Origin: Oehlia diaphana
Lineage: Eukaryota; Glomeromycota; Glomeromycetes; Glomerales; Glomeraceae
Direction of reading: 5' to 3'
Length of the DNA stretch: 64,000 bases
NCBI GenBank assembly: GCA_003833135.1
Contig: QZLH01000205.1
Location: forward strand, 61,697 to 125,696
The notes below the pieces were generated by a model. That model searched no databases and had not been told where the DNA came from. It was given only the letters and a program-made list of their open reading frames with translations. A program made the position numbers and the translations under genes. Shown in pieces: positions 58,279 to 62,347 of the stretch; position 1 is the first letter of the stretch; every line of letters starts with the position of its first letter.

Positions 58279-58904
58279 ATTTGTAAAAAAAATTGTGGTT
58301 TGGATATTAGATCGTTGGATGATTTTAAAATTTTTAAGAATATGGAGAATTTGGATGAAATTTAGAGATTAAAAATGGTAATAATTGGTTAAATAATGGT
58401 TAAATATGTCTGCTGCAATTTGACATCCTTGCTTTTTGTTTTTTCTTTTTGTTTTTTCTTTTTTTTTTTAAGCAATTTGGTGGTTTTTTATAGAATATAT
58501 ATATATATTTGGGAACATTTTTTTCTTTACACTGTTTTTTTTCAAAATTATAAAATTTTTTTACTAACATTTTCAAATGCAGTTATTGCTTTCAAAAAAT
58601 GAACTTTATTAGCAAAAAAAATTTCTACATATTACAAAAAAGATTTTATACAGTAAAAAAACCGATTACAAAAATTAGATTAGATTGTATGAATTTATAA
58701 CAAAAAATTTTTTATTAATATATATTTAAAAATGTTTAATTCATTGTCATAGTTATTAGTTATTACTTGTTAATTGCTTATTTAAAATTGTATTACATAC
58801 TATATATGTATTATATAATGTAAAGTTGTTGACGTGAAAAAAAAAATTTGGATAAGTAGCTTAATTTTATCAAATAAATATATTTTGAAGTGAAACCAAT
58901 AATT
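58279..58904. other. RRM gene 3' region
   Basis: AT-rich 3' flank up to the tRNA. No gene recognised. Confidence 0.5.
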
Positions 58905-58977
58905 GCCTTCTTGGCTCAGTTGGCAGAGCGTCTGCCTAGTAAGCAGAAGGTCGTCAGTTCGATTCTGGCAGAAGGCA
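58905..58977 (+). tRNA. tRNA-Thr (anticodon AGU)
   Basis: This 73-nt sequence folds as a complete cloverleaf. The acceptor is GCCTTCT/AGAAGGC with discriminator A. The D arm is GCTC..GAGC, and the anticodon stem is TCTGC/GCAGA around loop CTAGTAA (anticodon AGT). The T arm is GTCAG/CTGGC with TTCGATT loop. A box (TGGCTCAGTTGG) and B box (GTTCGATTC) are intact, there is no intron, and T-rich stretches downstream can terminate RNA polymerase III. Confidence 0.95.
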
Positions 58978-59145
58978 TTTATACGTTATTTATTTTGTGT
59001 TTTTCCTTTTTTTTTGCATTCCTAATTAGTTATTTCCTTTTTTTGCTAACGTTTTTTGATGGCGTATGTTTACGCCATGAAATTTTTAATTCTAATCAGT
59101 ATTTAAACTGATCATCTTTCTTTTATTCCAACAAAAAAAAACGCA

Positions 59146-60961: not shown

Positions 60962-62347
60962 TTAATCAAAGGCACTAGCTGTGAAATTTTCACCATATTC
61001 TGTAGCAGGAGGAGTTGAGGGAGCAACAGGAGTCTCCGTTATATGTTTTTGAAAGTCCTCGGAGATTGGCTGTGTAATTTGTTGTTCCTCCTTGGCATCC
61101 TATTTTAAACGGGATTAAATATTTAGAAAGTAATAGAAAAACCAACTAAACATAAATTAATAAATAAATTTTCATACCGAGATGTGGACCATATCGGGTA
61201 GAGGGTTCTTTGGACCAGCTCTGCCACTTGGATCTTGGTCCTAAAATAGAAACTTTCAGCGTTACTTTATCGATAAAATTTGTAATAAAATTTGCAGATC
61301 ACGTACCTTCATGATCTTGACCTTAATACCCAGAACACCTTGCCTTAACATAACGTGTCGGATAGCAGTGTCCACATAATCACGGATTGGCTGACCGGAA
61401 TGGATCATGAACCCATCAACAAATTTCATAGATTTAGCACGGGCCGCACGTAATTTTCCAGATACAACCACTTCACACCCTTTTGCGCCTGATTCCATAA
61501 TAAAACGTAAAACGCCATAACAAGCTCTATATATAGAGAATATAATTCAGAAAAGTTTTTAATTTTCTAAATATATTTTTAATATATTTACCTTCTTACA
61601 GCAAGACCCGCCAATAATTTGTACCGAAGAGACTCACATTGAGCAATAGCACAAAGTCCACGGTTTTGTACTTTCTCAGCGTATAATTCAACAGTATTTT
61701 CAGGAAATTTAAATCTTTTTTGAATAAGGGCAGTTAATTCACGAATTCTACGTCCTTTTTCACCAAGGACTTCTTGGGTGTGGGTAGCACGGATTATAAT
61801 TTCCGTACGAGCTGGTGTTACACGGACTTCCACACCAGAATAACCTTCTTCGGCCAACTCACGTGTAAAAAATTCGTTGAGTTCGGCAAAGAAAACACCA
61901 TCAGCAACGAACTATTTGATTTTAGATTTACGCGAAAAATTATAAATTAAGCAAATATTAATTGATTGAATTGTGCTTTGTTACGCTGGACAATGTTTTG
62001 AATAATAAATTAATGAAAAAAAAAATTTTTTTTTTTTGATTTTTCCCAACTTGAACATTAGGAAATAATAAATATATAATTATATATATATATATATATT
62101 ATAGGGCATCTCAATTCATCTGGATCAGGTAATCTTTTTAATCCGTACATTATACCTTGGGTAAATAAGGTATTCAAACAAGAGGTGCCAGATATAAATA
62201 TCATCATACCAAAATATAAAGTGAGATACTCTATAAAGCAATATCTTTAAAATATCTGCAATAAAATCTTATTGATATTTATCCTAAATTCATAATAGAA
62301 TATCAAAAAAATTACTTCACTTTTCTTTTCTTTGAAATTTGAGCCAT
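60962..62347 (-). CDS. RPS3: Cytosolic 40S ribosomal protein uS3
   Basis: Five exons (complement of 62321-62347, 61592-61911, 61307-61526, 61178-61240, 60962-61099) give 255 residues in phase. Exon 1 codes only MAQISKKRK. Exon 2 starts [19 protein letters not shown] and contains the KH domain ([20 protein letters not shown]). Exon 3 carries the C-terminal S3 domain ([20 protein letters not shown] and [20 protein letters not shown]). The last exons form the variable tail ending FTASAFD. uS3 forms part of the mRNA entry channel. Intron 1 is unusually long for this window (409 bp) and hosts a C/D snoRNA. It diverges from BOS1 over 239 bp. Confidence 0.96.
62073..62100. repeat. (TA)n tract in RPS3 intron 1
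   Basis: A run of mostly TA dinucleotides lies between the snoRNA and exon 2. Confidence 0.8.
62118..62214 (-). ncRNA. snR48: C/D-box snoRNA, snR48/U60-like, in RPS3 intron 1
   Basis: On the minus strand, C box ATGATGA (62201-62207) and D box CTGA (62125-62128) are bracketed by a short terminal stem (TTTGG on the 5' side, CCAGA on the 3' side). Between them, TCTGGCACCTCT (62181-62192) is an exact 12-nt antisense to AGAGGTGCCAGA, a conserved 25S/28S rRNA site that I recall as the snR48 (yeast Gm2791/Gm2793) and U60 target. A TTGA at 62174-62177 serves as D' box, and counting five bases from it selects the first G of AGAGG, equivalent to Gm2791. A 7-bp hairpin (ATACCTT/AAGGTAT) follows. The rRNA match is from memory, not a search. 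Confidence 0.72.

Follow-up and report, generated by a model that had tools for sequence, protein, structure and literature searches.

A predicted snR48-type box C/D snoRNA in the first intron of the RPS3 gene of Oehlia diaphana

Results

The RPS3 gene and its introns

The window analysed here is a 64,000-nt (64-kb) stretch of DNA from the glomeromycete Oehlia diaphana, and all positions refer to it. Its minus strand carries RPS3, the gene for the 40S ribosomal protein uS3 (60962..62347), recognized from Pfam, its relatives and its splice sites. The exons lie at 62347-62321, 61911-61592, 61526-61307, 61240-61178 and 61099-60962, with ends read from the splice sites, and give a coding length of 768 nt, i.e. 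255 codons plus a stop. The spliced 255-aa product matches the Pfam entries KH_2 and Ribosomal_S3_C, and its best named relatives all belong to the Glomeromycotina (Diversispora, Funneliformis, Rhizophagus and Entrophospora); with Funneliformis mosseae, for example, identity is 94% across 85% of the query. A search of viral contigs for RPS3 returned no relative. A tRNA-Thr gene (anticodon AGT) lies in the same window at 58904-58978 on the plus strand.

The first intron (61912..62320, minus strand, GTGAAG...AAATAG with GT/AG ends) splits the protein between MAQISKKRK and FVADG. At 409 nt it is the longest in the gene, the other three being 65, 66 and 78 nt, and it is in this longest intron, as an earlier note on this DNA had it, that a box C/D snoRNA is predicted. 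The predicted snoRNA begins 106 nt past the 5' splice site, and 206 nt separate its end from the 3' splice site.

Elements of the predicted snoRNA

The predicted snoRNA, of the snR48/SNORD60/SnoR1 type, spans 97 nt on the minus strand (62118..62214), as delimited by its boxes, guide and stem and supported by a chance test described below. Its C box, ATGATGA (62201..62207), agrees with the consensus RUGAUGA at all seven positions, and its D box, CTGA (62125..62128), was located by sequence. Between them lie the D' guide TCTGGCACCTCT (62181..62192), which is antisense to LSU AGAGGTGYCAGA, and the six-nt D' region GTTTGA (62174..62179), with the box TTGA at 62177-62174. A terminal stem of 5 bp, one of them U-G, is formed by TTTGG (62209..62213) and CCAGA (62119..62123). 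Thus the C and D boxes lie near the ends, a stem is present, and at least 10 nt of rRNA antisense stand next to D'. The C box, D', D box and terminal stem of the earlier note were all recovered on the minus strand where it had placed them, and the guide (62192-62181) is indeed in the same sense as the RPS3 transcript.

Outside the terminal stem, GTATCTCA (62222..62229) and TGAGATGC (62106..62113), both on the minus strand, can form an external intronic stem of 8 bp. External stems help intronic C/D snoRNAs that have short terminal stems. Together, the external and terminal stems form a flank duplex of -17.8 kcal/mol. The fold of the 100-nt snoRNA stretch is no more stable than that of its shuffles (z -0.07), and the terminal stem is absent from the minimum-energy folds of both the 100-nt and the 133-nt stretches. 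A computed fold places a 7-bp hairpin (ATACCTT/AAGGTAT, 62152..62173) directly 3' of D'.

No convincing C' box was found among the three candidates scored in the predicted snoRNA, which range from 4/7 to 5/7. ATAATGT (62147..62153) scores 5/7 and is without the GA core; CGGATTA (62145-62139) scores 4/7 with a GA core; and AAGATTA (62136-62130) scores 5/7 with a GA core and lies one base from box D.

The predicted target in LSU rRNA

A nuclear LSU rRNA gene was found in the assembly neither by a 28-nt pattern (up to 2 mismatches) nor by a 1001-nt LSU query, and two pattern scans of the viral contigs yielded no LSU. The 1001-nt query matched only bacterial-type LSU (L071, G000:C459). This bacterial-type LSU occurs together with four tRNAs; L071 is probably the mitochondrial contig of the assembly. 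Eukaryote-type rDNA at eight loci (L062-L069) in bacterial MAG contigs of a species-representative collection, which is contamination, served as a stand-in for the LSU. An Rfam run on four of the eight recovered LSU_rRNA_eukarya in all four. One of the loci, L065, carries a group I intron inside its LSU.

Against the LSUs of L064 and L065, the D' guide forms a 12-bp duplex with one G-U pair, which stands three bases upstream of D', and this helix-88 site is its best complement across the LSU, SSU and 5.8S rRNAs of the two loci. The fifth base upstream of D' (TTGA) faces the bracketed G of TA[G]AGGTG in both, which we take, from the yeast sequence and numbering, to be the equivalent of yeast 25S G2791. 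The register claimed earlier, five bases from D' onto this G, is thus borne out against both LSUs.

One position of the site varies. In the eight LSU loci, which belong to other organisms, the site reads AGAGGTGTCAGA in three and AGAGGTGCCAGA in none; the yeast LSU presumably has C at the variable position. The guide has G opposite that position, so the 'perfect' pairing to AGAGGTGCCAGA hinges on a C in this species. The guide duplex was computed at -22.1 kcal/mol, or -24.9 kcal/mol with the C variant of yeast. In PMC5389607, yeast G2791 and G2793 are both placed in helix 88.

Relation to known snoRNAs and their host genes

Among the Rfam families, plant snoR1 (RF00345) matches the locus best, with 22.2 bits and an E value of 0.0069 in a 121-nt scan, or 0.18 in a 3.2-kb scan. 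Since the cut-off is 49 bits, the locus does not qualify as a member of RF00345. In the window, tRNA was the only Rfam family to exceed its gathering score, and no snoRNA family did so. Profile searches with SNORD24 and snoR1 gave no match in the assembly, but none in any control genome either, which makes them uninformative. The snoR1 alignment spans the C box, guide and D'. The C box, the plant guide CUGRCACCUCUUGU and the D' register all align with the predicted snoRNA; the plant guide has A (for rRNA U), however, where the Oehlia guide has G (for rRNA C). SnoR1 is termed the apparent orthologue of yeast snR48 in PMC8053127, and the legend of figure 3 there leaves C' unassigned in the SnoR1/snR48 comparison, too. 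The match to SnoR1, the boxes, the guide and the D'+5 register all support what had been proposed, an snR48/U60-type methylation guide encoded on the RPS3 strand.

As described in PMC5389607, snR48 of S. cerevisiae resembles the Oehlia element in using a D' guide to 25S helix 88, in having UU followed by a six-nt D' region that ends in A, and in that the D'+5 rule applied to the downstream box selects G2791. The D' region itself differs (GUUUGA in Oehlia, AUGUUA in yeast), as do the lack of a consensus-like C' among the candidates, the location in an RPS3 intron, and the second G, which is not predicted here.

Two further guides are likened to the Oehlia element by their listing in published tables. 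CD8 of N. crassa is listed beside snR48 as a same-site guide for one G and marked 'IR' (PMC2780460, tables), which we read as intergenic. Chicken U60 (SNORD60), likewise listed beside snR48 for one G, is situated on the opposite strand within intron 9 of a predicted gene (PMC2653536, tables). The same source gives U15 (SNORD15) in introns 4, 5 and 6 of chicken RPS3, so that the remark that vertebrate RPS3 hosts a different snoRNA holds for chicken; SNORD15 shares the host gene but is listed for another rRNA site. That the Oehlia host differs from those known, as first suggested, agrees with CD8 being marked 'IR' and chicken U60 lying elsewhere. PMC3511168 describes snoRNAs as mobile among the introns of genes with broad expression, and a host gene unlike the known ones is therefore to be expected.

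Other relatives were considered and set aside. A guide for the U15/snR13 site was rejected, the best complements being the AGAGGTG site and a place 66 nt 3' of it. Afu_190 was dismissed on its guide, which diverges past CUGGCACC. The Tetrahymena family TtnuCD16 has a similar guide (10.4 bits, E value 5.7). Literature searches restricted to open-access papers found no report of this snoRNA in RPS3 of Glomeromycotina; in two small-RNA papers on AM fungi, the authors state that snoRNA reads had been removed.

One methylated G or two

Yeast snR48 is described in PMC5389607 as combining one D' guide with a pair of overlapping D' boxes to direct methylation of both G2791 and G2793, which agrees with the earlier note on this point. 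Its D' region comprises the six nt AUGUUA, with UU before. The dual scheme is said there to be conserved over diverse fungi, a couple of cases excepted, after which seven species with a single scheme are named. When two single-scheme motifs were placed in an artificial snoRNA, the first site was methylated, with some spill to neighbours, and the second hardly or not at all. Moreover, changing UG to AA at D' positions 2 and 3 of yeast nearly abolished the second site and was explained by interruption of the 'lower' D box, which we take to be the upstream one. Changing AU to CC at positions 1 and 2 affected the site opposite to the one predicted, and the authors caution that prediction is difficult where boxes diverge.

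In the predicted Oehlia snoRNA, GUUUGA comes directly after UU. Its downstream box, UUGA, agrees with the consensus at three of four positions and selects the G2791 equivalent, and the upstream box would be GUUU, without the GA core of a D box. Compared by eye with the account in PMC5389607, the element thus offers one plausible box, UUGA, and not two that overlap. Given the missing core, we lean towards methylation of the G2791 equivalent mainly or solely, and so towards one methylated G in this species, not two. The snR48-type guide of the original proposal is thus supported, and of the two G positions named there the G2791 equivalent is favoured.

The main alternative is that the element acts as snR48 of S. 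cerevisiae does, with the equivalents of G2791 and G2793 both methylated. The register of the guide and the six-nt length of the D' region are the same as in yeast, the scheme is reported to be conserved across diverse fungi, if with exceptions (PMC5389607), and Arabidopsis, with a SnoR1 alignable to this locus, has methylation at both equivalents (PMC8053127). Against this, GUUU would have to serve as the upstream box without a GA core, the UG-to-AA mutation at D' positions 2 and 3 nearly eliminated the second site in yeast, and none of the C' candidates is firm. We consider dual methylation unlikely in this species.

A candidate accessory rRNA contact

A second stretch of the predicted snoRNA, GGATTAAAAAG (62134..62144, minus strand), lies five bases 5' of box D and is complementary to CTTTTTGATYC in the LSU, at a site 66 nt 3' of the target G. 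It forms 11 bp with the LSU at all eight loci, with one G-U pair in five of them and two in the other three, and this is its best-scoring place in both full LSUs (L064 and L065). When the 45-nt D'-D interval was shuffled, 4 of 3000 sequences scored as high within a 316-nt region around the target; a harsher control, with random 45-mers of the AT-rich window, gave 22 of 3000. The element was found post hoc, so that the shuffle figures overstate it. The CUUUUUGAUYC site lies, we assume, near the peptidyl transferase region.

The stretch was rejected as a D-box methylation guide: its pairing with the LSU starts only at the sixth base from D and leaves the fifth unpaired, so no methylation would be guided by it. 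The 11-nt complementarity beside box D could instead be an accessory contact. The introduction of PMC5389607 states that over half of box C/D snoRNAs make extra pairing near the target. In the results of that paper, however, the C'/D' motif alone suffices for both sites of snR48 and extra pairing plays no role in U18, and these results therefore establish no extra pairing for snR48. A two-point grip on the LSU, in which the D' guide would methylate a single G of helix 88 while the D side pairs with CUUUUUGAUYC 66 nt downstream, the snoRNA serving in part as a clamp for folding and no longer setting the G2793 mark, in fungi of which at least Rhizophagus irregularis has rRNA copies of unusual heterogeneity, is in our estimate improbable.

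Chance tests and uniqueness

To be accepted by the descriptor, a sequence had to contain a C box RTGATGA, a D box CTGA whose start lay 50-130 nt further along, three or more stem pairs, and an rRNA guide of 10 or 11 nt with at most one G-U, no more than 3 bases from D or a D'-like box; the rRNAs of L064 and L065 were the reference. Among 20,000 dinucleotide shuffles of RPS3 intron 1, two satisfied it with a 10-nt guide and one with an 11-nt guide. In the 64-kb window the plus strand gave no match and the minus strand one, that in RPS3 intron 1.

A pattern of C box, guide and D' (TGATGA-N1-30-TGGCACCTCT-N0-8-TGA) likewise matched once in the window, compared with none in 100 shuffles, and once in the whole assembly (108.8 Mb, 1672 contigs). 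In the viral contigs it matched 60 stretches, close to the chance expectation by our estimate. When a purine before TGATGA, a stem of 4 bp and a D box no farther than 90 nt away were also demanded, 62 pattern matches were reduced to L001 and L070, both of which are the RPS3 intron locus. A looser pattern had four matches listed in the assembly, at three places including the RPS3 intron. The two other places (L072 and L073) were discarded because neither offers a usable D box in the 150 nt past the guide: the sole CTGA of L072 overlaps the guide, and L073 has no CTGA in that span. L073 sits in an open frame that we read as coding, presumably for a chitin-synthase-like protein. A DNA-similarity search of the assembly found no second copy of the snoRNA.

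These searches bear on whether the element might be a decayed, non-functional copy, the functional snR48 gene being located at another genomic site or absent from the assembled contigs. The weak C' and the low Rfam score would suit a decayed copy, and the assembly, in which no nuclear LSU was found, is incomplete. On the other hand, the C box, D box, guide and stem are all intact in the RPS3 intron, and the assembly contains neither a second copy by DNA similarity nor another arrangement of C box, guide and D' with a D box; we regard decay as very improbable. That the arrangement arose by chance within an AT-rich intron, where TGATGA and TTGA are favoured and the 60 viral-contig stretches approximate expectation, is more improbable still in the face of the shuffle tests, the D-box and stem test, and the sense-strand location within an intron of a ribosomal protein gene.

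Discussion

The elements described here suggest that intron 1 of RPS3 very probably encodes an snR48-type guide of some kind. More specifically, we favour as the likelier explanation a box C/D snoRNA of the snR48/SNORD60/SnoR1 group, encoded in this intron, that would direct methylation of the G2791 equivalent, with G2793 weak or absent; this is held less firmly than the existence of the guide because it includes the single-site prediction. The snoRNA would be transcribed with RPS3 and then spliced out, its ends being held together by the terminal stem and the external intronic stem. Binding of Snu13, Nop56, Nop58 and fibrillarin and trimming to about 97 nt would follow. The D' guide could then pair with helix 88 of the LSU rRNA, and fibrillarin would methylate the ribose of the equivalent of yeast G2791. 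With GUUUGA providing one usable D' box, methylation of the G2793 equivalent is expected to be weak or absent.

This explanation draws on the snoRNA elements, the host gene, the strand, the intron, the D'+5 register against two LSUs and the rarity of the arrangement, all of which are observed; expression, processing, protein binding, methylation and single-site specificity are what we infer from them. Against it stand the low Rfam score, the unremarkable fold, the weak C', and the 106 nt to the 5' splice site, compared with the 41-60 nt at which the intronic snoRNAs of N. crassa mainly lie according to PMC2780460. The single-site part has against it the wide conservation of the dual scheme in fungi and the yeast mutant that behaved contrary to prediction, both as reported in PMC5389607.

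An snR48-type guide in an RPS3 intron is ordinary biology and does not overturn current understanding. It would add a Glomeromycotina example to a guide already known from yeasts, animals and plants, and one more host gene, RPS3, which fits the published mobility of snoRNAs among host genes. Its D' sequence provides a testable prediction on the number of methylated Gs. Furthermore, Rhizophagus irregularis has heterogeneous rDNA copies, as reported in PMC6123716, and whether one guide fits every copy is thus a fair question for the group.
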